From Parelaphostrongylus tenuis (Eukaryota; Nematoda; Chromadorea; Rhabditida; Metastrongylidae), in NCBI GenBank assembly GCA_019055375.1, contig JAHQIW010007363.1, positions 186,001 through 250,000 of the forward strand: DNA of 64,000 nt. The letters are read 5' to 3'. Every line of letters starts with the position of its first letter. Positions within the stretch are counted from its first letter, which is position 1. Positions 20,070-63,985 of this stretch are shown in pieces. Position numbers and translations under genes: made by a program. The notes below the pieces were generated by a model, which worked only from the letters and a program-made list of their open reading frames with translations, did not search any database and was not told where the DNA came from.

Positions 20070-20368
20070 TTCGTTTCGAGTGTTTTCTTAAGACCACAGC
20101 TCAAATTTCAATATGCCTGATAATCATTATTTGAGCCACGCATGTTAGTGGTCTGTCAATTTTTCACTGGACATAGAGTGTAAAGCGTTCGTCGTCGCTA
20201 ACTCTTATTGTGGGGACTGGAACAACCACAGAGATTAGCAAAAGACGAGAAAGGGTAACTGCCCGACTGACGAGATAGCAAGATCGAAACACGTGTATCG
20301 GGCTCTATAAGTCAGCCCACATTGACAGACCACTGACATGCGTGGCTCAAATAATGATTATCGGGCAT
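20070..20368 (+). mobile_element. short non-coding element carrying a hammerhead ribozyme (copy H1)
   Basis: The element has a body and an inverted tail. The left GATAATCATTATTTGAGCCA...GTGGTCTGTCAAT is the reverse complement of the right ATTGACAGACCAC...TGGCTCAAATAATGATTATC. The far left CGAGTGTTTTCTTAAGACC is the reversed 3' end seen forward at 63350-63382. No ORF is present. A hammerhead lies at 20261-20303. The layout (hammerhead in the terminal region, partial inverted copy) is like the long terminal repeats of Penelope-like elements or small retrozymes, but no reverse transcriptase is linked to it here. Confidence 0.65.
20261..20303 (+). ncRNA. hammerhead ribozyme, type I (H1), core intact
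   Basis: In order: helix I strand GCCCGA; CTGACGA; helix II GAT..ATC with GCAA tetraloop; GAAA; self-complementary ACACGTGT as a minimal helix III; cleavage triplet GTA (20295-20297); helix I return TCGGGC. All conserved hammerhead core residues are present. The third pair of helix II is T-A here but C-G in other copies. Confidence 0.75.
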
Positions 20369-20439
20369 ATTTTCTGACAATATTTCAAATGCCATCAATC
20401 TCCCCCCTCGCCCTTCTTCGTGAATTGGTCTTTAGACAA

Positions 20440-21700
20440 AGTCATCGAAAATGTAAAACTTGATTGATTTTCCCTGCTAAATGGTATTTTCAGAAAATAA
20501 TTCAGCGCCTAAATCAGTAAGACTTGCGATGTCTAATGATGACTAGTAATCTGGAAAAGAACTCTGCTTTGTGAGGCTTAAAGCGCAATAGTTTCTTGCT
20601 CTTACAGCGTTATCAAAAAAAGCGTTTCCAGAAACCGAACACATTTTTGAGCTCTTCGAAACTTGTACTATCGAACGAGTGCTGGCAATCTAAGGAAGGA
20701 ATTTTGTCCAGCGCAACACAAGCGCGATAATAAAAATCTCGTGGTCATGCGAAACATAATTTTATTCCGAATTTTAGAGCGCTATGAAAAGATGTTTTGA
20801 AAAACCGATCACATAAAGCTATAGCTAGAGACCCAGGTTTTTGAGTGACTACTAACATTTCCATGAATAGTTTGTTTCCAACGACTGAAATTCGTCTCTA
20901 ATTTGTCGCCGTCTAACCTATACGCACCAGATAAAATATACCGGAATTTGCTTGATTTTAGCTATCGAATGATTATTGGCAATTCAATCTAGAGCAAAGA
21001 ATACATTTTTATCAAAGAGCTCAAACATAATGGGAATAACGGAGAAGCACTAGAGGACAAATATGTATCGTAAAAGATTTGTGCAGTTTGTGATTGTTCT
21101 TGTTTGATGTGTTATTACACAATGATATTTGTCGATGAATGTATCAATGAACTATGAGCGATACCAGCATTATGTGAAATATAGTCTAGAAGCATTCGTA
21201 CTTTAAAAGAGTTGAAAAGGCGTTTTTGTCATGAATGTAACTTTCATAATGGAAAGTATGATTTTCCAGGACAACTGGGCGTTCTTTTCACTAAAAGGAC
21301 GTTTATAGAAATACCTCTATTATTGATTCACCAAATTTTTGTAATTATGATGTTTTCGTAGAACGAAGTTCCATTATGTACTTTTCGAGAAACCGTCGAT
21401 CGAAAGGATCAGTTGACTGCAGGAGGCAAAAAATTTTGTTTTCTTTGCGCTAGTAACAGTAGCAGACGATGCGCTTTTCAAAAGCCAGCTAAGGTTCTTG
21501 AAGTCTTACTTTTTGAGCTATTAAAGGAGTACTAATAATCGAATGGAATCGGGCTTTTCTAGAGAAAACCGAAGGTTCACAAGGGCAATCTTTGAAATGA
21601 GATTGCATGTGACAGAAATTCTTCCCAAAAGTGAGGATTTTTCAAGACTTCAGTGGCGGCTTTAGTGATTTTTGTTGAAGTCGTTGAAAATGCCCTGTCA
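20440..21700. repeat. run of diverged arm-repeat fragments in both orientations
   Basis: Recurring pieces are GCGCAATA...TTCTTGCTC, TTATCAAAAAAAGCG-like, AAACATAATTTTATTCCGAA, CTATCGAACGAG and TCGAATGATTATTGGCAA. They resemble the 16090-17765 repeat but are too diverged to delimit. No gene is visible. Confidence 0.4.
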
Positions 21701-22530
21701 TGCAGGTTTTGCAGGTTTAGCTCAAACTTGGGTGACTAAACCTTTATACACATTAAAATAACAGAAGTACAATAACTAACGAGAGCATGAATGTTCATAT
21801 AAGTAGGATGAATAATACACCATCAATACCACAAGTATTAGAGTTGACAATACGCAAGCGTTGAGGATTAGCTGGAAAGTAAGATGAAGAGCAGCCTTCT
21901 GAGATTACATACGTTTGGCATGAGAGCAACAACGTGTCCTGAGGGTGGCGGCCACTCTGAAAAGGGCTGATGACCTATTGCGTGGAGTAGATGTTACATC
22001 GGGTACATCAGCGTTGAGTGCAACCTTAATTAGGATTACTGTGAGCCACCTTACAGACTACGATACAAAGAGAAGAGTAGGAGGCATTTGAAGGTGACCC
22101 AGTTAAAAACGGGTCAAGTGACGGTCATTCAAATGCATAGGCATGGATGACCATCTGGAGAGCAATAACGCTACAACGATCTAACTACCTTCTGTGTCTT
22201 GTCGCCCCATGCTTATAATGCTTATATACGAAATGAGACCAATGGCGGCCCGTTCGTAACATGTTTCTCAGTTATGAGCCTTTTTCGTATGTGAGGCATG
22301 AGAAGGGAAATAGTGAACCAGGATATTCTTATTACTTAGCTTTCGCTACCACTTTGTTATGTAGTCGCTCTCGCTTAAGTATATCAGCGCGCTCAAGAAA
22401 GGGAGCCAATTATCTTTTGGTATATTGCAGGTGAGTTTCATATACCCTGACTGTTCATTTAACAATCTAAAGCAATTATTCAGTTCCTCTTAAGTGGAGC
22501 AGATAATCAAATAATCAATTATATATATAT
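21701..22530. other. no gene recognised
   Basis: Short ORFs only. An (AT)-rich dinucleotide run lies at about 22520-22532. Confidence 0.3.
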
Positions 22531-22535
22531 ATCCA

Positions 22536-22820
22536 TCACTGGTGCTTCCACTGTCCACATAAAGGCAATAGCCAGCGTAGGTACCATCGCTGTCCCACTG
22601 CCAACTCTCTCATTTGAGCATAACATTTCCTGGAGTTCCTAAAGACTGAACAGTTTAGTTCTTTGCACGATCGTAAGTACAGTTTACCTAATCTCTTGCA
22701 AAGCGTGCAGCCACAAACATAATGGCGAAAGGGGTAGTCCGGTCTATGTTCGCGTAGAAGTACACTTAGCTGACAAGCGTCATAACAGACGAAACACTTT
22801 GCTAGTGACACATAGAGCAC
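22536..22820 (-). CDS. possible cysteine-rich 94-residue ORF or exon
   Basis: On the minus strand the frame contains CFVCYDAC near residues 9-16, YVCGCTLCKRLGK near 34-46, and CKELNC and RKC further on. That is ten cysteines in spaced pairs, followed by a Trp-rich end (RWYLRWLLPLCGQWKHQ). The pattern could be a disulphide-rich or metal-binding module. No signal peptide is evident at the first ATG, and I could not match a family. The upstream exon structure is unresolved. Confidence 0.3.
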   Translation of the reverse strand: MLYVSLAKCFVCYDACQLSVLLREHRPDYPFRHYVCGCTLCKRLGKLYLRSCKELNCSVFRNSRKCYAQMRELAVGQRWYLRWLLPLCGQWKHQ

Positions 22821-22829
22821 AGAAGCATA

Positions 22830-23765
22830 ACGGAGTAGATTTTGACATCGAAGTCACCATTCTTACGCAGGAACATAAGCATCATAGGGGAAGATTTTAA
22901 AAGCATTTTGGATAGACACGACCAACCCAACCATCCCTTTCGGGTGATCTTCACTTGAATCATTGAGTGGAACACATATAAAAAGCGGTGAGTATGTTGA
23001 GGGTTGATTTTGTACGCGATTGAATTCTAGGTCTGGTGACTATTTTCTGAAGAAATAATGGAGGTGTTCGACTGATTGGATTGCAAACAATTTAACCTTC
23101 TCAGGCTCTGAAGAAGGCGAACTGCAGAAGCCTGACCTTTTGAATAAATAAAGAAATCATACGACACCTCGTTCTTCACTTACACAGGAAAATTAGGATG
23201 CACTGAGGCATGCCGACGTTAATAGACTGTGGGTTTTGGGAATTGAAAGAAATTGTTTTCAAAGTTAAAGATTTTTGATACAGTTGACGTTTTTCTCTTT
23301 TAAAATACGTTTACAAAAGCTTTCTTAGTGATAATCTATACTTTTTTGTTAGCAGAAAACTCATAAAATTCGAAATTTAACTATGTACTCTCTAAAAAAT
23401 GCGCTATCAAATAGAAAAAATAAATTGCAGCTGCAAAACGTTATGTTTTATCTATTACTGAAACGTAACTTGTAAATCTTCTTACAGAACAAGCTCAACG
23501 TTTAAATTTTGTAAAGCTATCCATTGACTATAAAATCATTAAGGAGATAAGAGAAAATGTTAAATAAGAGCTGAAAATGCATCCCTTTCCGCAAAGATGT
23601 GGTTTTTTTCCTTGAAAGAGGCGAAATTTCCACAAGCCATTTTGTTAGTCAAATTTTAATCGGCACGTATGCTCACCCACTACTTTTGTGGCTTTGAGCA
23701 AGTATATTTCCTTCAATGTCAGTGGGCATAAATGTTAGTAGAGCTGCAGTGAAGAATGTGTTAGC
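22830..23765. other. no gene seen
   Basis: Strongly A/T-rich (for example 23260-23640), without splice pairs or repeats I could match. Confidence 0.3.
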
Positions 23766-24253
23766 TTTTGCTTGGCATGGCCCACACCACGAACCTCACT
23801 CTTCAGGAGATCCCACCCGGGTAGTCGCAAGGACACGCGGCGCGTCCCCAGGTGGTGGATAGGGAAATACGCGAACCAAGAGCGACTGTGTGCCTACCAG
23901 AGACGTGGGTGAATTCAGGGAAAACTCTCTGCTTCTGCAGCACCGACTTGACAAACTCTATTTCTGCAAGTCAAGTCAGCAAAAGGCCTGTAATCAAGCG
24001 GCTGGAAAGTACATGGGAGGCGGTCCCGCTACACAGAGAGACTGACAAGCTACTCGTGAGTACCCAGCCTTAACGTTTACAGCTTACTAAGCTGTACATT
24101 GGGTATCAAATGCTAAAAAACAGCTATGAATATGGGCCTCATTCCCCTGACCCCGAAAGAGCCCCTGGTACGGCAGCGCCAGGTAGGACGAGTACGGAGA
24201 GGCTGCTAAAATCTCAGAGCCGAACTAGGCTGCTAAAACGGAAACGGACTAAA

Positions 24254-25095
24254 ATGACGATCCGTACCTACAATGCAAGAACACTTGCTCACGAATCTAC
24301 TGCAGAGGGTCTATTGATTCAAGTAAGAGGAATAAGGTACAACGTCATTGGCTTGGCTGAAATGATAAGACGCCAACTTTTCACGCTGTTTATGACACCG
24401 GAGAGAAACTATTTCAAGGAACATGCTATAGCAGAGATATCGGCGGTGTTCGCGTCCTCGTAAAAATCGGATTTGACCGTGAGAATCGATGCATTCGAGC
24501 AGTTAACAACCCCTATCGCACGATTGCGGTGGAAACGATGTAGATCAATGTCGGCTCTGACCATCTTCGTTGCTTACGCACCAACATCAAGCTATGACAA
24601 GACGAAGACGATGCTTTCTTTATGAGCCTCGAAAAGTTTTTCAGAGAAGACCATACATTCTTCAAGGTCGTTGTTGGAGATTTAAACGCGAAAATTGGAC
24701 CTAAAAGAATTCCCGAGGAACGTCACATTGGGACTCACGGACTAGAATGGAATGATCAGGATGAGAGGCCATCTGAGTTTATCACTGCAACCCAAACCAG
24801 CCATGGTAACTCACGATTCCAAAAGCCTCTTTCTCAACGGTGGATGTGGAGCCTCCCAATGGAGAGAACCATAACGAAAAGACCATATCTTAGTAAATCA
24901 AAGGTTTTGCCTGAACGATGTCGCTGTTGTTCTTATGTTCTACACAGGATCAGACCATCGCCTTCTTCGCACAACGTTCCGTTTTTCGCTGAAAGGAGAG
25001 AAAGCCGCCAAATCCAAACAACGAAGTCCCAGAACTACCATAAATTGGGATGTATTCAAATCGCAAGTCGGCTTATGAGAAGACACCGTTGTTGA
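24254..25095 (+). pseudogene. RTE endonuclease domain (AP-type), broken
   Basis: It starts with MTIRTYNARTLAHESTAEG, the N-terminal strand of the apurinic/apyrimidinic-type endonuclease. Further on is the YNVIGLAE segment with the catalytic Glu. After a stop (24461) and a frameshift, 24622-25095 reads MSLEKFFREDHTFFKVVVGD, LNAKIGPKRIPEERHIGTHG and HGNSRFQKP; the GDLNAKIG block carries the catalytic Asp and Asn. The C-terminal SDH motif is visible only in another frame (GSDH, about 24951-24962). Frameshifts exclude activity. Confidence 0.85.
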
Positions 25096-25184
25096 ACAAC
25101 ATCGACGGAGAATACATCCGGCTTGTAGAATATCCTCACGTTAGCGCTTTGAAAGCCGAGAGTCCTAAAGTTTAGAAACAAACT

Positions 25185-27045
25185 TTGTCCTCGCAGACAC
25201 TCGAGCTGATGCATCAACGTGGAATCGCACGAGCTACAGGCAAGCGAGCGCTCACGTCCGAACTTGCGAAACGTTACAGGAAAGTGATAAAAGAAGACTT
25301 CAAAGAGAGAAGAACAGCAGTCATGGCAAAGACTGCAGAAGCTGGAAAGAGCATTCGCATAGCCCACCGAAGCTTCGCCAAGTACAAGACCAAGATGGTT
25401 GCACTCCGATGCCCTGATGGGACATTTACAGCTTCCAGAAGGGCAATGGAGAAAATCATTCACCAGTACTGCTCGGCTCTCCTCGTTAGCCACGTCCTCT
25501 TACAGTCATGTGAATTGAAAGAGGATTAATCAGTCGTTTCACCGGTCCTACCTTCTAAAATTCGACATGCTATATCGTCGGTGAGGAACAAAACAATACC
25601 GGGTCTAAACAGGATTAGATTTAAGCGCCAGAAGAACCCATCGCCAGTTTTCATCAACAGCCTAGCTCGGCTCTTCACTCGCTACCTATCAGAATGCAAG
25701 GTTCCCATTCAATGGATAACCAATAAGACCGTTTTGCTGTTCAAGAATGGAGACTTTCACGACATAGGCAATTATCGCCCAATCTGCCTGCTGTTCGTTG
25801 TCCTTAAACTCTTCACTCGACCAGAGTCAATTTAAACAGGATTTGACAGAACACTGGACAAAGGACAGCTATGCGAACAGGCAGGGTTCCGAAGACGAAT
25901 TCCTGCCATAGACCACATTCACACAATCACAAGACTTATTGAAGTTTCACGAAAGTACAAACAATCACTCTGGCTCACTTTCATCCATTTGATGATAATG
26001 GGAACAGAGCGGTTATAGAGACTTTGGATAACCAGGGCGTCCCTACTCGGTGCATAATGATCCTTCGTGAGCTGTATAAAGATTTCACGACTAAAATATC
26101 TCCATTCTACAGGATTATCAACATCGACGAAAGAAAGGGAATTCGACAAGGCGATACAAATGCGCCAGATTTATTCGCTGCCATCTTCAAAATGTCATGC
26201 GAACATTAGAATGGGACGATGTGGGAGTGAGGATTGGTGGTCGCCAATTAAACCATCTTCGCTTTGCTGATGATATCGTCTTCATAACACCAAGCATCAG
26301 CCAAGTGCAACGAATGATGACCAATTTTGACAACGGCCGTGGAAAGATTGGCCATTAACTAAATCTAACGAAAGCGATGTTCATGAGGAACGGATGGGTC
26401 TTGAATGCCCCATTTACGCTCATCGGAACGACAATCTCCATATGCTCCAGTTATGTCTACCTACGTTTTGAAATCAACATGATGAACGACCTAGCTCCAG
26501 AGTTGAGCAGTGGGAAACGAGCGGCTTAGGAAACACTTAAGAGCATCGGTGATGCAGTGAGGAGGACAAAGAACATCTGACTCCGTGCCCACCTTGTCGA
26601 CTCGACGATTTTCCCTGCCCTAACGCAAGAAGCAGAAGCCTGGTCGCTACGTAAGCAGGATGAAAGATCACTGGCGTTATCGAACGCGCAGTCGAAAGGT
26701 CGATGCTAGAAGTATCCCGTATCTCGCAAATGATAGAAAGGATCCGAAGTTCTAACCTATGTCAACGAATGCAGATCAGAGACGCCGTTCTACACGCTAG
26801 GATATCGAAACAAAAGTGGCCGGACATGTGATGAGCTTCAGCGACAACCGATGGACGAAAGCCGTTACCGACTGGATTTCTCGGAACATCAAGCGCTCTA
26901 CAGAAAGATCACCGACCCGTTGGTCCGATTTGTTCACGAAAGCTATGGAAAAAAGATATGACGCTCAGCGAATCCCTAGAGCAAGGAGGACCCACTGGGC
27001 TACTCTTTCACGCGATAGGGAAAAGTGGAAGTGTTGCTGAGACCA
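25185..27045 (+). pseudogene. RTE reverse transcriptase domain and C-terminus, broken
   Basis: 25185-25529 is the linker (ELAKRYRKVIKEDFKERRTA). 25581-25835 contains the fingers block GDFHDIGNYRPICLL. At about 25970-26010 the first catalytic Asp region is degraded (LTFIHL in place of a LTFIDL-type motif). 26024-26209 has the KGIRQGD block. The palm motif FADD is intact at 26263-26274 (LRFADDIVFITP). 26816-27040 is the C-terminal segment (DNRWTKAVTDWIS, RWSDLFTKAMEKR). The pieces sit in different frames with in-frame stops. Confidence 0.88.
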
Positions 27046-27616: not shown

Positions 27617-27639
27617 GGAAGATTTTATATAGGTAAAGT

Positions 27640-29094: not shown

Positions 29095-29310
29095 ATTTTC
29101 TGAGAGAACGCCACGATGACTGCTTTAACGTACGCTGAGTGTAAACAGTTCAGCGTCGATTCCTTCATATAAGGGATGTGTCTCCGAAGAAATAACCAAT
29201 GGAAAGACAACTTGCAACTGGCGATGCTGTAAGGTCAAAACACGTGTCTTACGCTATATAAGTGATTATATCAGACCTCACAATCAGATTACTGGAGAGA
29301 ACAAGTAAAA
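29095..29310 (+). mobile_element. degenerate hammerhead element (H7 relic)
   Basis: It retains GAGTGTAAACAGTTCAGCGT upstream and GCTGTAAGGTCAAAACACGT plus CTATATAAGTGA downstream, in the same order as H1. The core is lost: CTGGCGA in place of CTGACGA, and AAAA in place of GAAA. Confidence 0.5.
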
Positions 29311-36539: not shown

Positions 36540-37235
36540 TTAGCTGAGCTAGTCTTCCTTTTATCAGTCACACTGGAATAGTATAAAATGAGGGTGCGCT
36601 TACGTTCATGTTGCTCCATCGATACCCTGGCATTGCCTTTCTCTCACTTGCGTTCCAAATGTAATTGACGACTGTCAGCAATCACTTGTGAACGGGTTAC
36701 TTTGTAGAGTGCAGATTGGTATCAAATACAGCTGAGTTGGAGTTGCACTTCTAAACACAATGGTAACTCTCATTTCTTATCTATTTTCTATCACAGCTGG
36801 TGAGATACGAGCAAAACTCAGAGTTCGAGGTGTCTTAACAATGGCGTGTAAAATCAAGGGAGAACCAGTTAATCAACGACCATCTTGTATAAAAGGAGCT
36901 TTTGAGTAAGATTATTTCATTCGCCGAAGATGGCGAGTTAATCAGCGGTTATCAACTCTCTCGATGCACGGTAGCACAAGCGAAGGCGAGTTTGGGGAAA
37001 GGTTAGTTGGCCTGGTAATAGTTATATAGCATTTTCAACTACTGTGTAGCTCAAGTGTTCATTAGACGGCTCGGCTGTGAATTGTGGTTTATCTACTTTT
37101 CGCCAAATGATTTTTAGACCGTTTTTTGAGTTCAGATAATGAGAGCAACTTCTTTACATATAAATCATAAGTTTTTTCCGTAATTTTCACTTATAAGAGG
37201 GTAAATAAAGGACCGATCCAATTCACTGAGGGAAT
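36540..37235. other. no gene seen
   Basis: A short shared phrase (GATACGAGCAAAACT near 36810) resembles 13640-13655, but no structure could be delimited. Confidence 0.3.
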
Positions 37236-37239
37236 AATT

Positions 37240-37975
37240 TTCAGAGGAGTGTTAGTGATCGATCGAAAGCTGAGACCTTTGGCCACTGTTCCACGTAGCC
37301 GGTTTTCGAAAAAGCTTTTTTTCTTGACATTGCCACAGGGGGAGAATTCTTGCGTTGCATATTCGCATATTTCACTCCGAACAGATTTCTTTCTTTGAAC
37401 TATCGGTAACCATTCGATAGCGCAATCGTTTCTGATTCCATGCTGCGCTTATATCCTGAAAAGGCCGTTTCACTGAATCGCAGCAGGTAAAGTAAGTTGA
37501 ACTTCCATCCGCGATTATGGGGTATTCGGTCAATTTACGTGCCTGTGTGTGGGACGGCCACGGGAATTGCTTACGCGTTGCTTCTCTATGCATTCACATG
37601 TCCAAAAATCGATGCTCATCGCGACATCGAGCGTGGCTGCCTGCGCCAGCGGCACGTGATGGCCAAGGACCCGTTTGACCGTAGATGGGTTTTCTACTTA
37701 TTTTTCCTGCTAGGTTTCAAAAAAAACACTCTTTTCAGAATATAAGCGCAGTGCTGGAATCAGAAACGATTGCGCTACCGTATGATTACTAATGGCCCAA
37801 AGAACGATTTTGTCCCGCAAGGAATGCGCGCGTCTGTAACGCGAGAAGTCTCATTCTGTGGTAACGTAAAGAGGAGGCTTTTTCAAAGCAGGCCAAGTGG
37901 AACTGTAGTCTGAAGCCTCAGCTTTCTAATGAGTACTAACAACCCCATAGAATATTCCTCCCCAGCAAATAAGAT
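37240..37975. repeat. complete foldback element
   Basis: The left arm AGTGTTAGTGATCGATCGAA ... CCACGTAGCCGGTTTTCGAA pairs with the right arm TTTTTCAAAGCAGGCCAAGT ... CTTTCTAATGAGTACTAACA. The pairing continues inward: the TTACGTGCCTG region and the GGCACGTGATGGCC region are complementary. It is non-coding and in the same family as 51489-52072. Confidence 0.65.
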
Positions 37976-38165
37976 CGGTCTTTCGTTTGTCCTCTCATAA
38001 CTGAATAGTACCTTTTTTATAGCGCTTCATCATTCAGTAGCGTCCACTAGTATCTCACGCAACTGATATGCATTGTTTTGATGCACTTGGCCGTCCTAAC
38101 TTGTTTTTCTTAAAGCTTATGTGCTCTTCATGATGTGCCAACGGAAGTACAACGTTATTGTAATA

Positions 38166-43140: not shown

Positions 43141-43259
43141 AAATGGATTTCGTTTCAGAACAATAGCAAGGTCGACTCTATCAATCTTGATGGCGGATTG
43201 AAATGAGGCATGTGATAGGCATACATACTTTCCGTCAGGAAGGTGTTGGACGAGATACT

Positions 43260-45756: not shown

Positions 45757-46070
45757 CTACCACTTCAAGCGTTTTCTTAAGACTACGCTCAAATTTCAGT
45801 ATACAGGTATGATATACTGAAGTTACCAGCTAAGAGTAATCGAGTGTACAAAACTGTATGTGCGGTGATAATCTCACTTGACTTATCGTGTAAATCGTCC
45901 GTCGACGCTACCGCTCAGTGTGGAGAGTGGAGCACCCACAGAGGATTGGCTAAAATGACGACGGGTTCTGTCCGAATGACGAGACTGTAAGGTCGAAACA
46001 CGTGTATCGGGCTGTACAAGAGCCAATTCAACAGACGACATGTCAAACTGGCTCAAATAGCAACTATGAG
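45757..46070 (+). mobile_element. hammerhead element H2, core mutated
   Basis: It starts with the inverted tail (CAAGCGTTTTCTTAAGACTA) and then GAGTAATCGAGTGTACAAAA, TGGAGAGTGGAGCACCCACA and the hammerhead at 45970-46012. It ends ACTGGCTCAAATAGCAACTA. It is present at the same place in block B (63660-63975), so this insertion predates the duplication. Confidence 0.65.
45970..46012 (+). ncRNA. hammerhead ribozyme H2, inactivated (C3 to A)
   Basis: The layout is as in H1, but the core starts ATGACGA in place of CTGACGA (C to A at 45976). Helix II GACT/GGTC with GTAA tetraloop, GAAA, ACACGTGT and GTA/TCGGGC are intact. The block B twin H6 keeps the C. C3 is essential in hammerheads, so H2 should not cleave. 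Confidence 0.7.
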
Positions 46071-46159
46071 ATTTGGTAATTATTCGACAGCTCCAGTTGT
46101 AAAGCGGCCTCCATAGCAGTCTTTGCTAACAAAAAAAAAAGATAACTTTCTACTTAGGG

Positions 46160-46285
46160 GCGCATATAGTGCAGTGGATAGATGTGCCCTACGTCGCACA
46201 CGACATCGTTGGTCCGATCTCGCAGTTATGGCTCGCCAAACCTTCCATCTCGTCGGGGTCGGCGACTTGGTGCCAAACCTATCTG
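46160..46285 (+). mobile_element. tRNA-derived SINE, 3'-truncated
   Basis: Head CGCATATAGTGCAGTGGATA, B box region TGGTCCGATCTCGC, then CTCGTCGGGGTCGGCGACTT. It ends before the body. It sits between H2 and H3. Confidence 0.7.
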
Positions 46286-46413
46286 CTAGTATTTTTATCA
46301 CATTGTACTCCGATTTCGAGTGTTTTATGAAGAGCACGCTTAAATTTTGATAGATCTCTTCATTATTATTCGAGCCAGCATGTCATGTGGTCTGGTAAAT
46401 GGGCTCTTCTACA

Positions 46414-46455
46414 GCCCGATACACGTGTTTCGACCTTACAGTTTTGTAATTCGGA
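46414..46455 (-). ncRNA. hammerhead ribozyme H3, degenerate
   Basis: On the minus strand GTAA tetraloop, GGTC, GAAA, ACACGTGT and GTA/TCGGGC are kept, but the CTGACGA core reads ATTACAA and the first helix II base pair is lost. Not expected to be active. Confidence 0.6.
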
Positions 46456-46694
46456 AGGAACCCGCCGTTTTTCATCCTTTTTTAGCCAATCTTCTGTGGG
46501 TGCTCCGGTCTCCACACTAAAAGGTATCGATAAATAACGTTTTACACTGTAAGTCAAGTGAAATATCACCAAACTTACAGTGTTGTACACTCGATTGCTC
46601 TTTGCCTGGTGCTTTTATCATATTAGTGTCATAGTGGAGAGACTGGAGCACTTACAGAGGATTGGGTGAAAAGGATTGAAAGACGACGGGTTCT

Positions 46695-46737
46695 GCCCGA
46701 CTGACGAGACTGTAAGGTGGAAACACGTGTATCGCGC
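46695..46737 (+). ncRNA. hammerhead ribozyme H4, core intact but helices weakened
   Basis: GCCCGA, CTGACGA, GACT-GTAA-GGTG, GAAA, ACACGTGT, GTA. The closing pair of helix II is G-G and helix I returns TCGCGC (one mismatch). Core nucleotides are all present; activity is doubtful. Confidence 0.65.
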
Positions 46738-46799
46738 TGTGCATGAGCCCATTTACCAGACCACATGACATGTTGGCTCAAATAATAATGAAGATCTCT

Positions 46800-50959: not shown

Positions 50960-51045
50960 CTAAAATAAGGAAACACTAAAAGTCATATATCACAATACGT
51001 TTCGGCGGTTCCGCCCTATTCAGAGTCTTGAAAGATGAGGTTGTC
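50960..51045 (-). ncRNA. possible second-type hammerhead relic
   Basis: On the minus strand: CTGAATA, stem GGCG-GAAC-CGCC, GAAA, CGTA. The GAAACGT end with a two-pair helix III is the pattern of hammerheads in Penelope-like elements. The core lacks G8 (AATA for ANGA) and helix I does not close, so it would be dead. It is unlike H1-H7. Confidence 0.3.
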
Positions 51046-51488
51046 CACAACCAGCCAGTCAAACACCTCCATCACTTCATTAGTACAAATTAGCGAACCT
51101 AGATATTCGATCGGACAAGCACAAAAATTATTTCTACAACATATTCCTCTCCTTTGAGAGCCTTTTAGTGAGTTCTTCAAGTCAGCAGTTTGATAAATAT
51201 TACTGTAAGAACTTTAGGTCAAGCTCACTAGGAAAGAAAGAGTTCTTGAAGAGTGCCGAGTTTTAGAAATAATAGAGGTCTTGGGACAAATCGTTCAGTC
51301 GTCGTCTGCATCTTCGCATCGAGTATAGTACATTGTGAAAAATGAAGCAGCTGAGAAGAGTGGCTAAACTGTAGGACAAAAACCTCAAATCATCTGAACA
51401 TGTCATTCAGTGTGAAAAGGGCAGTCAAAAATAACAAATCACTCTCACAACACCGTAACGTGGATTTGAATAAAACTTTATGGATTGA

Positions 51489-52072
51489 AAAAGATACTTT
51501 GTGGTTATGGTGACAAACGAAGAAGCAACCTCTTTCGCTGGAGACAAACTTTTCGTAGGAGTGTTAGCAACCATTCGAAAGCTGAGATTTCTGGCTACAG
51601 CTCCACATTGCCGGTTTTCGAAAAATCCTTTTTTGGCGTTGTAGCAGAAGGAAATTCCTTGCATAGCACACGTACGCATTTTCGCTGAACAGAGCTCTTT
51701 CGTTGGACCATCAGTAATCATTTGATAGCGTAATCGTTGCTTATTTCAACGCTGTGCTTATATCCTGATAAACCGTTGCTCTGTAATGAAGTAAATAAAA
51801 TGAGTTGATAGAATCAGCAACGATTACCCTATCGAAAGATTACTGATGGTCCAAAGAAAGAGCTCTGTACCCGACTAGAAATATACGAGTCTGCTACTCA
51901 AGGAATTTCTTTCTTCAACAACGCCAAAAAAGACTTTTTTGAAACCGGCGATGTGGGGCTGCAGCTAGAAATCTCAGAATTCGAATGGTTCCTAACATTC
52001 CTATGAAAATTTCCTCTCCAGCGAATCAGGCGAGCTTTTCATTTGTTCCCTTATAACCACAAGATGCCCGAA
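51489..52072. repeat. nearly complete palindromic foldback element, about 580 bp
   Basis: The left TTGTGGTTATGGTGACAAAC, TTTCGCTGGA, GTTAGCAACCATTCGAAAGC, CTCCACATTGCCGGTTTTCG and TGATAGCGTAATCGTTGC all recur as reverse complements on the right, in mirrored order, ending TTATAACCACAAG. The spacer between the arms is only tens of bases near 51780. It is the best preserved member of this foldback family and has no ORF. Confidence 0.75.
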
Positions 52073-52547
52073 AACGAGTTGTTGTTATTTTCGTCTTCTT
52101 ACGTATAATAATTGCTCACTGTTTCCAATCTCACAGCATTCAAATTTCCGCAGTCGGCAAACCTGCTGACATTCTTAGTAGTGGCGCCGGCATTAAATGT
52201 TCTTTTCCTATTCAGCCGCTTCTGGTGGCAACACTGTTACCTTATAGATATATGCCAAGACTGCATTGAAAGGATGAAACCTTAGGAGGAAGTTGAACCT
52301 GCGTCTAACCCTTTCCGGGGCGAGCGCTGACCACTGCGCTGCTGGGATTGCTGTTTTTTTCTTGCACTATTTATCGAAATGCCGAATGATGATTTATTTC
52401 ACCCGATTGTGACGGTTTTCTCTTCTCCGACTTGAGAGATCCATCAGGTTTCACAGAAAGATGTCGGATCAATGCTGTTGTGAAGCTAAAAAATTTCTAC
52501 TGGGACCGAGCTTTTGTTATTTTCGCCTTGTCCCACAGTAAATTAAA

Positions 52548-52808
52548 CCGAAGAGAATTGAGTGGTGAGCAAAAATACGACTTCAGACGGGAGTCGAATC
52601 CTCGTTTCATCCATACCGCGGAGACGTGCTACCACTACACCACCGAGGTCAAAGGTTGGTGGCTGATAGCTGAGACAGTGAAGAATGAGTGGCGGTGCAA
52701 ATGTACATTGGGTGGTGTACTGGTAGCACACGTGACCCGTGTGAATGAAACCCGGGTTCGACTCCCGTCTGAAGTTGCATTTTTGCTCACCACTCAATTC
52801 TCTTTGTC
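52548..52808. mobile_element. foldback element with two divergent tRNA-like modules (F2)
   Basis: The ends AAGAGAATTGAGTGGTGAGC and GCTCACCACTCAATTCTCTT are exact inverted repeats. Modules: minus 52579-52650 (GACCTCGGTGGTGTAGTGGT ... ATTCGACTCCCGTC) and plus about 52705-52777 (GGTGGTGTACTGGTAGCACA ... GGTTCGACTCCCGTC). The centre has GGTTGGTGGCTGATAGCTG, as in F1. Confidence 0.75.
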
Positions 52809-56957: not shown

Positions 56958-57805
56958 TTATATGTTAGAGGAAGACATATTTTTTAGCCGATCTCATTCG
57001 TTGAACGAGAATTTTTCATAGGATTGTTGACAATCGTTCGAAGGCACAGATTTCTAGCTACAACTCCACGTCATCCGTTTTTCAAAACTCCCCTTTATAA
57101 CGCTGTAGTATCCGGGAATAAATTTTTGTTTCTCAACCTCTTTTCGCCTTCATTTTTATCACAAATATAAAATTCTGAAAGCGCTAAAAGCATATCAGCG
57201 TGTGGGGATTTTTCTGTAGAATCAGAATCCACGTTCCTATCTAAAGTTTCTGTCAATGTGCTAGAAAAAATTCCCAATAAAATGACAATAGTTGCAGCCG
57301 ATTCAATGCATAGTGCGGGAGATCAGGTAATTACCTTACAAGCAAGTCGCTGCTATGACTTCCCTCCACATTTCACTCAGTTATGAACTTTTTCGGTGAC
57401 TTTGTTTATCAGCCAACCCACGGAGTAGGTTTGGGGGGCGGGGTGGGCGACCAATCGCGTCTGTTATTGCTATATAATGGGGATTTCCTCACCACATCGG
57501 CAAAAACTTCAGAAAAAAATATGGACTGTGTTGTTACTAAAAATTGTCTTCACGATAGTATGCTTTTCTTGCTTTAAGCGATTTACACACTTGGTAAAAA
57601 TGAAGACGAAAAGCGAGAGAGAAACAAGATTTTGTTCTGGATGCTACAGCTTTGTAAAAAAGTGTCACAAAAAAAGGACGAAAAGGACGATGTGGACTTG
57701 TAGCCCGAGTTGAGCTATTGAATGATTACTAACATTCCTATGAAAACTGCTGTGCAGCGAATGAGATCGGCATGAAAATTTGTCAACGTCTAACATGAAA
57801 GTACT
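56958..57805. repeat. foldback element immediately upstream of the gene
   Basis: The outer left GTACTTATATGTTAGAGGAA pairs with the outer right GTCTAACATGAAAGTAC. The inner arms TTTTTCATAGGATTGTTGAC and CATTCCTATGAAAACTGC also pair. The centre has GGTTTGGGGGGCGGGGTGGG. The gene start codon (57795-57797) lies within the right terminal repeat. Confidence 0.7.
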
Positions 57806-58951
57806 AAGTCAATCATCTGAATCCACAAATGAAAACGCGTCTACAATAACAGAATGGATTTCGCGTAAGCCACATTGCTAGAAACAGACTACGCCTGTAG
57901 GACAAATGTACGAGAGAAAAACTGATAGCAACTACACTAGAGCTCGCACTATTAGCGACGACGCGCAATGCAAGTATATAAGTATCGCGTCATCAAATCT
58001 GCTGTCTGCATCATAGTACGTCTTGCATATTCAATTTCTTTCTCATTCATCCTTAATGAGCATTGCGCGTTGTTCTGGTTCTTGATTGAAGATTTCGTCA
58101 TTTATTTCAATGCCGTAGGAAGTTGGTCGACGCTATTCTTTATGATACCATTGGAATAGCCGAGTAGAGCGTCTGCATATGCTCGTACGGACGAACGATG
58201 CAGAGGTAGCCAAACTTTGCACTGAGGTAGCAAAAATAATTTTCACCTTATCACCCATTCTTTGATGTCTTCAGCACATATATAGGTTGTTCAAAGTGAC
58301 ATCATGTTGCAATTGCTTAGGTGAATTATAGCCTTTTGATTTTGAGGTGCTCTCGCTTGAGAAGCTGCTTCAAAAGAAAGCCCAGCGCGCACCTCAGGTT
58401 TGCCTGTCAACTTGTGATCTGTTTGCATTCTGCTGTCCTTCCAACTATTCTATGCTTTACAGCTGAATCTGAAAATCAGCGCCACGTCAATGATGAACGA
58501 ACAACTAGTGTATGAGCAACAAGCTAGGGTAGCAGCTGAGAAACGCTGTATGGAATTAAAGCAGGTCTTCGCTACCTTCAAATATTCTAGCTCTCTTGCA
58601 CATATTTTCACTTTATTTTTTGTGAGGTATAAATTATAGAAATGGCAGGCGGCTCAATTACAGACAAAGTCCTACGCAGAAGAGGTCACTTCCTTATAAG
58701 TTTTTTTTTTGTTATTGTATCAGTGTGGAATATCTCCTGCATCGAGGTGGCCCTCCGTGGTGATCTAATAGGTTTTGAATTTTAGTGCTTTAGCATGCAA
58801 TTTTTCCATCCAAAACAAGAGTATTTTTGCGCAGAAGAAAATAAAAGAAGAGGAGCTTATGGCTCTCCGTTATGAAGAAGAGAAAAACGAGGAACTGGTA
58901 GCTCTCACACGCACACAGGACCTCCTTCTCAAAAATCAAGCTTATCTTTGA
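57795..58951 (+). CDS. seven-exon gene, 179-residue coiled-coil-like protein, function unknown
   Basis: Exons: 57795-57864, 57901-57973, 58160-58226, 58332-58397, 58463-58564, 58640-58684 and 58835-58951. Every intron is GT-AG with matched phase, the first being 36 bp; acceptors include CTTTACAG and AATTATAG. The product starts MKVLSQSSESTNENASTITE. Other landmarks are RTISDDAQC (residues about 39-47), RVERLHMLVRTNDAEVAKLC (about 49-68) and PFDFEVLSLEKLLQKKAQRA (71-90). Residues about 104-165 are rich in Glu, Gln, Lys, Ala and Leu (NEQLVYEQQARVAAEKRCME, KWQAAQLQTKSYAEE, EEELMALRYEEEKNEELVAL), as expected for a coiled coil. It ends LLLKNQAYL with TGA. No signal peptide or membrane segment is seen, and the family is not recognised. 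The start codon lies in the flanking foldback and the last codons and stop in the next repeat, so an originally longer gene may have been cut down. Confidence 0.75.
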
Positions 58952-59800
58952 GATCGCTGAGATTTGTGCTATCCAAAAGCTATTGAAACTCTGAATGAGA
59001 ACCTCTGTCCAGCAAGATGTTTGAGTGTGAAAGAAAATTTGGTACTTGAATGTTAAGCGACGACATATTTCCAAGCCGATCTCATTTGTTAGACAAGGAA
59101 TTTTATTTAAGAGTTTAACAATCATTCAAAGGCATAATTCTTTAACTACAACTCGATCTCACCGGCTTTCAAAACACACTTTTATTATGCTGTAGCTTCC
59201 AGAATAAAATTTTGTTACTCCCTCGCATTTCGGTTTCATCTTTATCGCAACTATAAATATCTAAAAGCACGAAAAGCATATCAACGTGTAGGGAATTTTT
59301 CGTAGTATCAGAAATTACGTTCCTATCTAAAATTTCTATCGATACGGTGTAAAAATCCTCAATGAATAACAGCGGTTAACGCCGTTTTCAACGCATACGC
59401 GATAGATCATTGTCAAGTTAAGCAGTAGATCAGGTACCTTACGAGAAAGTTGCTGCTGTGAGTTCCCTTCACATTTCACTCAGCTATGAACCTTTTCGGC
59501 GACTTTGTTTGTTATCCAGCTGATCGGAATGCGATGGGGGGGGGGGGGAGCATTCCTGTACCACATCGACAGAAACTTCAGAAAAAAATGTAGAGTTTGA
59601 AGCTACAGGAATTTGTCTACAGGCTAATATGCTTTTTATGGTTTCAGCGATTTATACGTCTGGTAGGAGAGGAGACGAAAAGCGAGTGAGAAACAAAATT
59701 TTATTCTGGATAGTACAGCTTTATAAGAGAGTGTCATTAAAAATGAACAACGTAGAGTAGTAGCCAGAGATTTGGCATATGCAAGAGTAGAGAAAATCTT
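58930..59800. repeat. repeat and foldback element downstream of the gene
   Basis: GAGATCGCTGAGATTTGTGC matches GAGATCGCTGAAATTTGTGT at 56855 and continues as the same repeat. The foldback arms (59079 onward) follow, with a G13 run at 59536-59548. The gene is therefore bracketed by direct copies of the same roughly 950-bp repeat. Confidence 0.7.
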
Positions 59801-60369
59801 GTTCTATCAAAGTTATACAAAAATTAGTAAAATTTCGGCCAACTCAAGAAAAAAATCCTTAATCAAACCACGAAAATCGCGCACCTTGCTCTGCGCGCAT
59901 CGATTTCTATAGCCGTCCGTTAGAGGTTAATAAAAGGACATCGGCATTATGGAAACTGTTGGTCAGAAATATACGTCTCCAAAGAACTAATCTCGTCGGA
60001 AAGTATTGTCGTGGATGACAGGAAAAGGTCGTGTATATTTAGTTGCTTAGCAACCTCTGGGGTTTTGTGAAACTTGTCTTGTTCTCATCTTTATTACCCA
60101 CTGATGTCACAGTGAGGTTCGTATTTCAGAACTGGAGAGATGCTGACTAAAGTGAAGCGGCCATAAAATTGTTGAGTCAGTTCTGACTAAAAAATTTAGA
60201 GCATGCAGCTTCATAGCTATCTTTGACAGTCATTATGACTTCGACAATCAAATTGATTTGCACACTCTATTGAATTTCTACCATTATTTCTAAATATGAT
60301 AGTGATTTCGCAGAACATCCGCTTTTTGCCCTTTTGTGAAACGGCTTATTAACGAACTAAATCGGCGTG

Positions 60370-60470
60370 CGTAACAGTTCAGCACACGCTCGCGGAAATA
60401 GTGAGATCTGGGTTCGCATCGCGGCTGACGGAAATGTTTTTGTACAGCACTCTACATTATTGAGTATACC
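60370..60470 (+). repeat. tRNA-derived family 2 repeat in block B
   Basis: CAGCACACGCTCGCGGAAAT then TCTGGGTTCGCATCGCGGCT, one base off the B box of the block A copy at 43030. Confidence 0.5.
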
Positions 60471-61752
60471 GAAATGGATTTCGTTTCAGAACAATTGCGA
60501 GATCGACTCTATTGAACTTGATGGCGGACTTGAAATAAGACATGTGATAGGCATAAATGCTTTCCGTAAGGAGATTTCGGACGAGATACACAATGCTCAC
60601 CAGGTATTTTTATTGAAATGCAGAAAATTGAAACTTTAACACATCATGGCTATTTTTTGAACGTCAGATTTTTGTAGACAGATCGAATTCATGATAACGC
60701 TCATTTCGTTGCTCGCTTCATTTGTCTCTTATGTCTCTGCGAAATGATTATGGATCGGAAAAAAATTAAAATTCTTTTAGTTGTTGGGAAAAAGAAACCG
60801 ATAAGAAATTTGTAACTATAGCCGATTAAGATTAAACTGATTCACGAGATTTCAGTTTTAAAGGATAAGTAAGGCAATTTCTTTAGAAATTTATTATCAT
60901 AATGTCATTTAGGTGGGCTATAGATGGATTATGCCCAAATTGAACTCTTTTCAGTGGACTCTTGAGAAACGGTAAGAGAGCACTTTACGACAAAAAGAGA
61001 CGATTTGCCTACAAATCGCATCGCTGTTGGAAGTAATTTACTAACCAAGTCTCTCAAAATAAATCTTAACACACTGTGGAGCCAATGAGGTGTCATGAAA
61101 TTTATTGTGGCTGTGTTCTACATCACTACTATGAGTTTGTTGGAACACCAAACAATGGCATGCTCTCTAAGTCGACACTTCGACTCCATAAGTCGGCAGT
61201 AGTATCATTCAACAAAATGTATTAGTAAGTAATGTGCATGTGTCGTTCAAGAAGGTCTTCGGACTTAGGCATGGATTCAGTCGCAACTTGTGAATTCTGT
61301 CTTCTTCATCGCTGACTTGCTGACTCTTACGATGACCAACTGTCTGTCACCTGTGATGATTAGCTAGGATTACAATTACTAGCTATTTCCTCCCAATCCA
61401 AGAACTCTATGCACTCATGCACTTCCTCCTCCATCTCTTTTCTCGTTCATTCTATCGAGTAGACTCCAATTTTCAGTTTTCCTGTTGAGTTGTCAAGTTT
61501 GAGAGCTAGTTATATAATTATTTCCTCTTCTGACAATCAAGAATGCGTTAGTTTTTCTTCTTACAATACATCATGAATCTGTCGTATCATAGAACCGTTC
61601 ATGGTATTCTATATAGACCTCTTAACTCATATTGGACTTATCTGTCAATCGTGAGACTGCATTATTGCGTACAAGCTTTCTTATTTATTTATGTTCGTCA
61701 TTGACATTTTGATATTATCTATGCAAAACTTTGATCAATTACATATAAGATT

Positions 61753-61946
61753 GGTACCAGATAGGTCTCAGACTTGTGTGGGAGGATAAGCAGCACTGAC
61801 TCGGTTCAGCGGGAGGCCTCCGCGAGTCTTTGTGAAGGCCAGATATGCATTCAATCACCTCAAACGAAGTTAAAAATTGAAGTCGAATGCATAGCTCATC
61901 CCTCAGGGATTGATCAACGCCGAGAGCTTTATCCTTTTTTATTTTT
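61753..61946 (+). mobile_element. 5'-truncated tRNA-derived SINE with target site duplication
   Basis: It starts inside the body (GGTACCAGATAGGTCTCAGA), ends CTTTATCCTTTTTTATTTTT, and is flanked by AAGATT (61747-61752 and 61947-61952). Block A has a single AAGATT at the same place (44388-44393) and no SINE. It lacks the tRNA head, so it has no internal promoter. Confidence 0.92.
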
Positions 61947-63090
61947 AAGATTACTTCCGCACATCCAATTCGCACAAGTGGAATATGTCACAATTGTTGA
62001 GTCTAGTGAAGCGTTTTTAACTGACGCCTTCAAGCTCAAGGGATCTCATGAGCTTTGTTTCATAAACCGCTTCAGCTCAGATACGTTCAAAAGTGTAGGG
62101 AATCACAGAATGTGACCGATAGTGGCATCCGTCATTCGCGCACACTTATCTAATGCTTCGAATGTATGATGATCGATTAAAATATTTAATATGCGCAATT
62201 GTAAACATGTAATATATAGTGATGCGGGCAATGCACTGATTGTCTCTGATTCGATTGTAAACCAGAGGAGCACATAATGGTAACAGAAGAGCAAGTTCTT
62301 CTATTTTTTTCGAGAGCTCCATATGAGCAGTGCGGTATTGGGTGCGACAATTGTATTCACTCACACCGTTTGGAGTAGGGTTCCATAAACTCCCATGCTG
62401 TGAAAATTGTTTGAAATTTCTGCTATTCTATTCAATCTGATCTGTTGATCTCAAAGTGATCAAGAGTTGAATAAATGTAAATAGTTGATTACGTCACTTC
62501 CTTCACATTGCTATATGCGCTGATGAAGGCTTGCACAAAATCAACCGTTTAGAAATTGCGGTTGATTGATCGCACCGTGCAACTCTCAGGAGACGCGCGA
62601 TTTTCCTTGTTCAGTTAGGATTTTCCTCCATTTGGAAAGCAAAACCTTAGGTTTTTGTGATGGTCTGATAGTTCGTGATTTTATCTAAAGGTTTCGTGCA
62701 TATATAACTTTTCTGTACGATGGATACTTTGAGTGCGGAACCTAATTTTCTTTTTCTCTTACACCGCTCTATGGTAACTTTCTAAAAATCGTTTGCAGCA
62801 TAGTCATCCCGAGAGTTTGGCTATCGAATGACTAGGAAAAGTTGGACAGAGAGCCATATACAATCTCCAGCAAAGAAGATAAAGCAGACTGAGTGTAAAT
62901 CATAGTCTCATTTTCGCTGCTACAACGTGATAGATGGTTGTTTCCAGAAATAAAACATGTTGTTGACATTACAAAGATTTGAGCATCCGAATAATTACCA
63001 GTTGTCTAGAATAAATGTTTTACCTAGCCAGAAGGGCCTTCAACCAATCGTACCTCAGCTGGTACATGTCGGCCCTTAGTGATTAAGCGC

Positions 63091-63394
63091 GCCAGCGAGC
63101 AATCGAGTGCGCAAATACTCTGTGTCAGGCGAAAATTTCGCCTGACATAGAGTGTAAAACGTTTGTCTTCGATGACTCTACGTAAGGGAGCAGAGTTCCC
63201 GAGAGAACTGACTATAAAAACATCGAAAGAGGACGGGTTCTGCCCGACTGACGAGTCTGTAGGGACGAAACAAGTGTATCGGGCTGTACAAGAGCCCTTA
63301 TTAGACCACATGATAAGTTGGCTCATGTAATTTTAAAAGGACTATTGAAATTTGAGCGTAGTCCTGATAAAGCACTCGAAATAAAGGTATTATA
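63091..63394 (+). mobile_element. hammerhead element H5, 304 bp, limits defined by the empty site in block A
   Basis: Block A reads AGCGCTTGAG where block B has this insertion. CGC flanks it on both sides (63088-63090 and 63395-63397). The element begins GCCAGCGAGCAATCGAGTGC, contains a 16-bp hairpin (ACTCTGTGTCAGGCGA ... TCGCCTGACATAGAGT at 63117-63153), carries the hammerhead at 63242-63284, and ends with the tail TGAAATTTGAGCGTAGTCCT ... CACTCGAAATAAAGG. It has no ORF and is non-autonomous. Confidence 0.8.
63242..63284 (+). ncRNA. hammerhead ribozyme H5, intact and covarying
   Basis: GCCCGA; CTGACGA; GTCT-GTAG-GGAC; GAAA; CAAGTG minimal helix III; cleavage triplet GTA (63276-63278); TCGGGC. 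Helix II has T-A as its second pair where the other copies have A-T, a double compensatory change. All core residues are present. Confidence 0.8.
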
Positions 63395-63659
63395 CGCTTG
63401 AAAACCGTTTTATATATAAACCAACCGTCTAAGAGATATATAATTACCAAGGTCATTCCGCGCCAGGATTTTCTACGACGCAAGCATAAGAAGTGAAAAT
63501 GTGGAAACTTATGTGGTAAGTTTAGATTTTCAAGCAACTTTATCACTACTAGATGATGAAGCATCACATAAAAGACGAAATCAGCTATCTTTTAGCAGGA
63601 AAAACCACATCTTTCCAAAAATGAACATGTTTCCAACTGTTTTGTAATATCTCTCACTT

Positions 63660-63985
63660 CAAGTGTTTTTTTGAGATCAAGCTCAAATTTCAATGTATAG
63701 GTATGATATACTAAATTTACCGGCAAAGAGTGATCGAGTGTACAACACTGTATGTTGGCTGATAATCTCACATGACACACAGCGCAAATCGTTTGTCGAC
63801 GCAACCTCTTAGTGTGGAGAGTGGAGCACTTACAGAGGATTGGATAGAAGACGACGGGTTCTGTCCGACTGACGAGACTGTAAGGTCGAAACACGTGTAT
63901 CGGGCTGTACAAGAGCCCATTTAATAGACCACATGACAAATTGGCTCAAAAAGCAACTATGAGATATTGGTTATTATTCGACAAC
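63660..63985 (+). mobile_element. hammerhead element H6 (block B twin of H2)
   Basis: Same limits and flanks as 45757-46070: inverted tail GTGTTTTTTTGAGATCAAGC, then GAGTGATCGAGTGTACAACA, then the hammerhead and AATTGGCTCAAAAAGCAACT. Confidence 0.65.
63863..63905 (+). ncRNA. hammerhead ribozyme H6, core intact
   Basis: GTCCGA; CTGACGA; GACT-GTAA-GGTC; GAAA; ACACGTGT; GTA (63897-63899); TCGGGC. Helix I has one G-T wobble. Its block A twin lost C3. Confidence 0.75.

Follow-up and report, generated by a model that had tools for sequence, protein, structure and literature searches.

Introduction

Minimal type I hammerhead ribozymes of Penelope-like elements (PLEs) were reportedly described by Cervera and de la Pena in 2014 and by Lunse et al. 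in 2017. Metazoan retrozymes without long terminal repeats (non-LTR retrozymes) are described as tandem, non-coding units of ~170–400 nt that carry type I hammerheads (PMC7229834). On the basis of co-occurrence, a 2020 review regards PLEs as “likely candidates” to move retrozymes (PMC7761336), and in Adineta a tail is reported as an optional feature at one of two inverted PLE pseudo-LTRs, the pairs being explained by self-priming (PMC3846280). Two questions are at stake: the completion of PLE insertions and the mobility of animal retrozymes. A genome with many short copies offers a direct record of insertion ends. Here we describe a family of such copies from a 64,000-nt stretch of the nematode Parelaphostrongylus tenuis (contig JAHQIW010007363.1, positions 186,001–250,000; hereafter the window) and from the assembly to which it belongs. 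The element is a ~317-nt non-autonomous retrozyme with a minimal type I hammerhead, and it is likely moved by a PLE protein of the same genome through the mechanism proposed below.

Hammerhead ribozymes of the window

A preliminary description of the window had proposed short mobile non-coding elements with type I hammerheads, in which the self-complementary ACACGTGT forms a reduced helix III, a type that it tied to PLEs and animal retrozymes. This proposal is supported. The ordered hammerhead parts were located at all seven of the reported places, and all seven are real as judged by a covariance model (R1) trained on 90 genomic copies; those at 20260, 46694, 63241 and 63862 belong to the training alignment, while those at 45969, 46413 (minus strand) and 29211 lie outside it. 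R1 returned exactly seven confident matches in the window, with E values between 5.5e-20 and 1.7e-7, and the hit ranked after them, at E 0.82, is noise. The parts follow the type I layout, in which three helices surround a core of CUGANGA ... GAAA ... NUH and the open end is at helix I. A strict scan, requiring an intact core and at least 3 pairs in helix II, 3 in helix III and 4 in helix I, was passed by three of the seven copies (cores at 20267, 63248 and 63869), and 60 first-order Markov shuffles gave a mean of 0.03 strict-scan loci. The motif CTGACGA on its own occurs at chance level in the window (9 observed, 6.4 expected).

Core and helices are thus kept in three copies and damaged in four: ATGACGA replaces CTGACGA at 45.97 kb, the cores at 46.4 kb (minus strand) and 29.2 kb are broken, and the 46.7-kb hammerhead has a single mismatch in helix I and another in helix II. 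The helix I strands GCCCGA and TCGGGC, earlier called perfect complements, are so at 20.2 and 63.24 kb but not at 63.88 kb (one G–U pair) or 46.7 kb (the mismatch). Self-cleavage is predicted at GTA/TCGGGC. The search with Rfam covariance models that had been suggested as a check fell short of the curated cut-off, with no hammerhead at the gathering threshold in the window. The top sub-threshold match there was to RF00008, at 22.5 of 48.5 bits, and a genomic locus (L008) reached 23.7 of 34 bits with RF00163. The likely reason is that helix III is minimal, the models probably expecting a fuller one.

The retrozyme unit

Across the 481.5-Mb assembly the motif CTGANGA, 6–30 nt, GAAACACGTGTA has 8,420 exact matches (4,219 forward and 4,201 reverse), and the reversed control pattern has none. 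Units were delimited from two loci with two tandem ribozymes each. Measured from cleavage site to cleavage site, unit A is 317 nt (L008, GC fraction 0.454) and unit B 318 nt (L001, GC fraction 0.418), and the two are 73% alike. No stop-free stretch of more than 100 codons occurs even in the doubled unit, and no reverse transcriptase (RT) or GIY-YIG reading frame was found in the unit. Non-coding, within ~170–400 nt and below 50% GC, the unit has the properties of a metazoan non-LTR retrozyme, and the element is a retrozyme with a Penelope-type minimal hammerhead.

The folding of the A unit beats that of 100 out of 100 shuffled sequences (z −4.2). Over 90 ribozymes, 76 of them distinct, helices I and II covary (0.256 versus 0.154 ± 0.009 when shuffled, and at most 0.092 in a slid-pair control). 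Helix III is near-constant over the same set, which is uninformative because the copies were selected by that stretch. In a divergent subfamily (L012, L030, L053, L076 and relatives) helix I now reads GTGCAA/TTGCAC or nearly so. The suggestion that the hammerheads act as dimers is weakly backed by two-strand folding of four sequences. In the genomic copy L015 a double hammerhead with a helix III of 8 pairs is the best predicted fold; helices I and III are also predicted for the 20.26-kb copy, with helix II shifted, and the 63.24- and 63.86-kb copies adopt other shapes.

Paired arms and their outer ends

Copies outside the window were analysed in 88 loci, nearly all near the start of the contig-ordered match list, from which three that repeat others were removed. 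Arm ends were called by BLAST, with a possible error of several nucleotides. For the count of neighbouring arms, the locus that follows the window (L027) was left out and the window added, giving 85 sequences, 83 of them with a match. Adjacent arms less than 80 nt apart lie minus/plus in 57 cases, minus/minus in 4, plus/plus in 2 and plus/minus in none; for arms 80–400 nt apart, minus/plus was seen 10 times, plus/minus 4 times and plus/plus twice. As neighbouring arms are mostly minus/plus, both 3' ends of a pair face outward. This head-to-head rule, the most telling feature as to how the elements move, had escaped the preliminary description. Pair scoring of 85 loci and three window pieces gave 61 minus/plus pairs and 55 unpaired arms, and removal of one pair repeating a window pair left 60 for analysis. 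Arm length varies between 31 and 706 nt, and the inner ends are independent of one another. Those exceeding one unit (22/120) show a repeat spacing of 313–318 nt in the eight arms compared, which is the tandem head-to-tail arrangement of retrozymes; the remaining arms amount to one unit or less.

The outer 3' ends cluster at two unit positions, referred to as site 1 and site 2. Among the 49 classifiable pairs, 20 are site 1/site 2, 22 site 2/site 1, 5 site 1/site 1 and 2 site 2/site 2. Hence, 42 of the 60 pairs use opposite sites, 7 the same site and 11 are unclassifiable (Fisher p 3.7e-7), the 42 including both the 45.97- and 63.88-kb copies, which are one event by duplication. In 20 pairs, correctly placed common stretches of 10 nt or more flank the insertion; all 20 are of the opposite-site kind, and none of the 7 same-site pairs has such a stretch. 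The pairs without a target duplication further include 21 opposite and 11 unclassified ones, and one more opposite pair lies too close to a locus edge for this test. The duplications of the 20 pairs measure 10–14 nt, the threshold being 10, and the ends corrected for them have medians of u67 (52–73) and u115 (104–133), 49.5 nt apart. Common stretches of at least 10 nt flank 17 of the 38 better pairs tested, versus 0.57% of 1,406 cross-locus controls. Within the window, the 20.26-kb insertion has an exact 13-nt duplication, a length reached or exceeded in 1 of the 1,406 controls, and the 46.4/46.7-kb pair lies between 11-nt repeats that differ at one position (CTATCTGCTAG/CTATCTTCTAG, at 46279 and 46798). 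Together, head-to-head arms, a tail at one end and a short target duplication make up an insertion of the Penelope type. Of 13 single-arm insertions checked, four (L001, L017, L036 and L040) carry a common stretch of 11–13 nt close to their ends. Each of them terminates at site 1, a hint that this site may be used first, though four cases are too few to conclude.

Seen by itself, the 20.26-kb copy, with an inverted repeat of 51 nt (96% complementary) and target duplications, resembles a miniature inverted-repeat DNA transposon that by chance carries a hammerhead and whose terminal repeats are recognised by a transposase. This assignment was dropped after cross-locus comparison of ends and arm lengths. 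The repeats are the 3' parts of one unit in both orientations, the inner ends and lengths of the arms vary as described, and all 20 duplication-flanked pairs end at two different unit sites rather than at the identical fixed terminus on which a transposase would act; such an origin is very remote.

The junctions between arms are tight, with gaps of −5 to 7 nt in 38 of 60 pairs, as would also be seen if one cDNA or antisense RNA folded back and primed itself, a route proposed for rotifer Penelope pairs (PMC3846280). Self-priming predicts a palindromic junction, with both inner ends at one and the same unit position. The inner ends of the two arms agree within 10 nt in 1/60 pairs (4.0 by chance) and within 20 nt in 5/60 (7.8 by chance), i.e. 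no more than chance, and self-priming is therefore unlikely as the rule; nor does it predict different outer ends of the two arms. We consider it highly improbable as the source of the pairs. L1-type twin priming was rejected as well, both arms beginning at 3' sites.

Penelope-like elements of the same genome

The preliminary remark that no protein is linked to these copies holds for the unit itself. It overlooks a decayed PLE with RT and GIY-YIG parts at 22.28–23.25 kb of the window and many PLEs genome-wide. In the window element the minus-strand RT meets the plus-strand GIY-YIG at 22.66 kb, and its 3' untranslated region (UTR) contains a decayed minimal hammerhead and the long, tail-bearing end near 23.24 kb. 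In the genome, 1,723 first-look candidates for GIY-YIG (PF01541) were obtained; the 150 best were scored, all above the cut-off. Two loci (L107 and L110) combine RVT_1 and GIY-YIG within one long open frame. Among the 120 listed of 250 matches to the PLE protein, the named homologues are from nematodes, including Ancylostoma ceylanicum, Necator americanus, Haemonchus contortus, Nippostrongylus and Heligmosomoides. The top match among those listed reaches 75% over the whole query, that of Angiostrongylus costaricensis 77% over 53% of the query, and one from Gnathostoma 38%. A search of solved structures with the protein returned no significant relative (best E 0.072). The PLE 3' UTR has a predicted minimal hammerhead, its putative parts being CTGAAGA, a short helix II and GAAACGTC/AGC; folded alone, the motifs of L107 and L110 gave no hammerhead fold.

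The PLEs follow the same geometry. Adjacent GIY-YIG hits less than 6 kb apart among the 150 best of 1,723 lie minus/plus in 20 of 22 cases and plus/minus in none, the other two being one minus/minus and one plus/plus. Outer ends were examined in 16 of the 20 minus/plus pairs and, with an end of one (C4986) beyond the stretch read, scored in 15; in every one of these, one arm is short and the other has an extra tail of ~43 nt. Of four more pairs, found within other PLE loci, those of L101, L105 and L111 are short/long, and in L100 one arm is tailed and the other halts ~20 nt beyond the cleavage site, before the short site. The total is short/long in 18 of 19 scored pairs, with no long/long and no short/short case. 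Flanking common stretches of at least 12 nt occur in 12 of 16 PLE pairs, the maximum in 240 cross-locus controls being 9 nt. The two ends are similarly placed in both elements, ~60 and 103 nt beyond the cleavage site for the PLEs and ~67 and 115 nt beyond it for the retrozyme. These comparisons cover some of the PLE families of the genome.

Inverted repeats are prone both to recombination and to misassembly, and the pairs might in principle have formed after insertion or be artefacts. Since the target duplications bracket whole pairs, the two arms at a locus are 1 to 29% divergent, and 20/20 retrozyme and 18/19 PLE pairs obey the end rule, the chance of this is close to negligible. A closer competitor is that the arms are pseudo-LTR pieces of the PLEs themselves and constitute no separate non-autonomous family, given that geometry, two-end rule and ribozyme kind are common to both. 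Yet the arms of up to 706 nt consist of head-to-tail 317–318-nt repeats without PLE coding sequence. The unit matches just 6 of 30 PLE loci, outside the conserved UTR and in what appear to be separate retrozyme copies, and PLE coding matches in retrozyme loci fall outside the arms for the families covered; PLE UTR matches within retrozyme loci are scattered. We therefore regard the pseudo-LTR reading as distinctly unlikely.

In both elements a weak stem-loop is predicted between the start sites, the modelled folds being too unlike for a shared motif, and a mixed PLE/retrozyme pair was looked for among the loci and not shown. Some loci bring the two together in other ways. On the reverse strand of L106 (~1815–2443) a retrozyme arm comes after a PLE 3' end and shares its orientation, as would result from nested insertion or a template jump, and in L019, L036 and L054 retrozyme arms abut coding sequence from more divergent PLEs (29–61% identity) as if inserted there.

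Template RNA and proposed mechanism

Among arms with a classed end, 92 of 108 pass back through the cleavage site, the longest arm being 706 nt, and inner ends lie within 5 nt of that site in 3 of 120 cases, without any pile-up. The template was therefore uncut there, i.e. a circle or an uncut multimer, and a circle is probable. The same figures could be taken to mean that the hammerheads are inactive relics without a role in movement, and a lizard PLE is reported to insert without need for cleavage (PMC11167929). Still, helices I and II retain their pairing through compensatory changes, in a sample admittedly selected by core, and we consider the relic reading unlikely.

A circular template is also in keeping with the likeness between arms. 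Arms of the same locus resemble each other more than do most other pairings, with a median rank of 9% over 49 pairs (top 5% in 19/49, below the middle in 5/49), where the comparison set spans all subfamilies, which favours the result. For six of the eight long arms, the likeness between repeats inside an arm is close to that between the two arms, e.g. 97.8 and 96.8% in L011 and 96.6 and 95.4% in L087. This favours, but does not prove, one circle read by both primers.

The mechanism proposed here starts from what is observed: the unit, the conservation and covariation of the ribozyme, the pair geometry, the use of one start site per arm, the target duplications and the same rule in the PLEs. 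A unit-length or multimeric RNA would be made first, and the hammerhead, perhaps as a double hammerhead, would help to yield unit-length RNA to be ligated into circles. The PLE protein would bind the RNA 3' of the ribozyme, at two RT start sites ~67 and 115 nt past the cleavage site, and its endonuclease would nick both target strands ~12 nt apart. Each free 3' DNA end could then prime one cDNA, one from each start site, and joining of the cDNAs at their inner ends would result in head-to-head arms, short at one outer end and long at the other, between target duplications of ~12 nt. Cleavage, circles, the action of the PLE protein in trans and the order of the steps are those parts that we infer. 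For the PLE of the lizard Anolis, purified and assayed in vitro, both target strands were found to be cleaved and extended, and two nearby internal RT starts explain the tail (PMC11167929).

Several observations weigh against this mechanism. The loci were not picked at random: they match the ribozyme exactly and nearly all come from the front of the contig list, and the sample leans to intact copies. The two-end rule is broken in 7 of 49 classifiable pairs, none of them with a target duplication. Ribozyme cleavage, the transcript and the circles are predictions from DNA sequence, and the double hammerhead is the best two-strand fold of just one sequence in four. In two of the eight long arms (L008 and L010) the repeats within an arm are less alike than the arms, which misfits one perfect circle. 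No clear sequence likeness was found between the retrozyme and the PLE UTRs compared, so the proposed action in trans is read from geometry. Finally, the Anolis study reports no start-site difference between strands and no need for ribozyme cleavage (PMC11167929). That bulk result need not conflict with the present one, because either strand may take either site here (20 versus 22 pairs).

It is tempting to go further. A circular RNA may serve two primers at once, held by a PLE dimer that nicks both strands and makes one cDNA per fixed site. All complete insertions would then be head-to-head pairs, short at one end and long at the other, and this would be the standard mode of Penelope insertion, for the autonomous PLE too, in which retrozymes are passengers; we offer this generalisation tentatively, with somewhat more doubt than confidence. 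The rule common to retrozyme and PLE can be counted, and under it priming should occur on both target strands, with a separate start site for each. If true, it would also supply an easily read genomic mark of RNAs that PLEs move in other animals.

Insertions and other repeats of the window

The seven hammerheads had been listed as seven separate elements. The 46.4- and 46.7-kb copies are arms of one insertion and the 45.97- and 63.88-kb copies were duplicated together, and therefore about five insertion events are represented (Table 1). The duplication within the window spans ~6.5–7 kb (39636–46106 versus 56999–64000, 83–86% identity), and some elements occupy only one of its two copies.

Table 1. 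Retrozyme and PLE features of the window (positions from the first nucleotide of the window)
Feature	Position	Strand	Evidence
Target-site duplication, left copy TTTCTGACAATAT	20048..20060		13-nt exact repeat at both insertion ends
Retrozyme minus arm of head-to-head pair, outer 3' end at site 2	20055..20160	-	BLAST, 93% to 317-nt unit
Retrozyme plus arm, outer 3' end at site 1 (u73)	20162..20371	+	BLAST, 90% to unit
Type I hammerhead, core intact	20260..20304	+	R1 69.6 bits, E 1.1e-18; strict scan, helix II 3 pairs
Predicted cleavage of 20.26-kb hammerhead	after 20297 (GTA/TCGGGC)	+	
Target-site duplication, right copy TTTCTGACAATAT	20371..20383		pairs with left copy
Decayed PLE, RT part (minus arm)	22277..22658	-	tblastn, L107 and L110 proteins
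Same decayed PLE, plus arm: GIY-YIG remnant, 3' UTR	22664..23248	+	tblastn, blastn
Decayed hammerhead (CTGGCGA, CAAAA)	29211..29255	+	R1 32.7 bits, E 1.7e-7
Short minus arm, 45.97-kb insertion	45771..45801	-	outer end approximate; may extend to ~45753
Plus arm, 45.97-kb insertion, paralogue of 63699–63952	45805..46057	+	BLAST, duplication
Hammerhead, core damaged (ATGACGA)	45969..46013	+	R1 66.8 bits, E 8.3e-18
Minus arm of head-to-head pair, outer end at site 2 (u133)	46285..46622	-	BLAST; flanking repeat
Decayed hammerhead inside minus arm	46413..46457	-	R1 40.6 bits, E 6.8e-10
Plus arm pairing with 46285..46622, outer end at site 1 (u66)	46669..46797	+	BLAST
Hammerhead, one helix I and one helix II mismatch	46694..46738	+	R1 67.4 bits
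PLE 3' UTR fragment	50997..51125	-	blastn 74%, E 6e-14
Single-arm, near full-length unit	63091..63389	+	BLAST; empty site in duplicate at 45.50 kb
Hammerhead, intact core and helix I, helix III ACAAGTGT	63241..63285	+	R1 66.9 bits; strict scan
Short minus arm, 63.88-kb insertion	63658..63694	-	BLAST to unit
Plus arm, 63.88-kb insertion	63699..63952	+	BLAST to unit
Hammerhead, core and helices intact	63862..63906	+	R1 74.0 bits, E 5.5e-20; strict scan
Predicted cleavage of 63.88-kb hammerhead	after 63899	+	

Other repeats share the window. Open frames at 24074–25529 resemble a nematode RTE-type non-LTR retrotransposon. The tRNA-like sequences at 9936–10278, 12535–12606 and 52543–52804, two of the three within inverted repeats, are perhaps tRNA-derived short interspersed nuclear elements. 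Additional repeat families are found at 37180–38017, 51488–52062 and 7004–7464, some as long inverted pairs.

Comparison with known systems

Earlier work has described retrozymes, the minimal hammerheads of PLEs, the head-to-head arrangement of PLE ends and the tail. By title and the start of abstracts, we found no description of hammerhead retrozymes in nematodes or of PLEs in Haemonchus, and nematode cases may be in print. Nor did literature searches give any tally of pairs with one end short and the other long, though PMC3846280, in its accessible portion, puts the tail at one inverted end.

The metazoan non-LTR retrozymes share with the present element small non-coding units, a GC content below 50%, tandem copies and target duplications of more than 4 bp when present. 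They are described as tandem, whereas the copies found here are mostly head-to-head pairs obeying a two-end rule, and the hammerhead here is minimal, without a helix III loop (PMC7229834). In this last respect it resembles the minimal type I hammerheads of PLEs, in which helix III is nearly absent and cleavage as a dimer is expected; elsewhere some of these sit inside the pseudo-LTRs that belong to coding elements and the majority are dispersed, while here the ribozyme belongs to a separate 317-nt non-coding unit (PMC7761336). Compared with the retrozyme, the PLE of this genome has an even shorter helix III (ACGT).

Plant LTR retrozymes are similarly non-autonomous and hammerhead-bearing, and are thought to use circular RNA (PMC4918200); they differ in their LTRs and 4-bp target duplications (PMC7761336). 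Parallels in insertion geometry are offered by the GIY-YIG PLEs, with head-to-head pseudo-LTRs and a tail at one of them, of 31 bp in Adineta vaga and 30–40 bp (PMC3846280, PMC11167929). Target duplications are found in the Adineta vaga PLE as well, there of 8–10 bp (PMC3846280), and the Anolis element PAc likewise has two internal RT start sites with the hammerhead upstream of them (PMC11167929). The retrozyme differs from these elements in having no protein of its own, and the short/long rule for paired ends is counted here.

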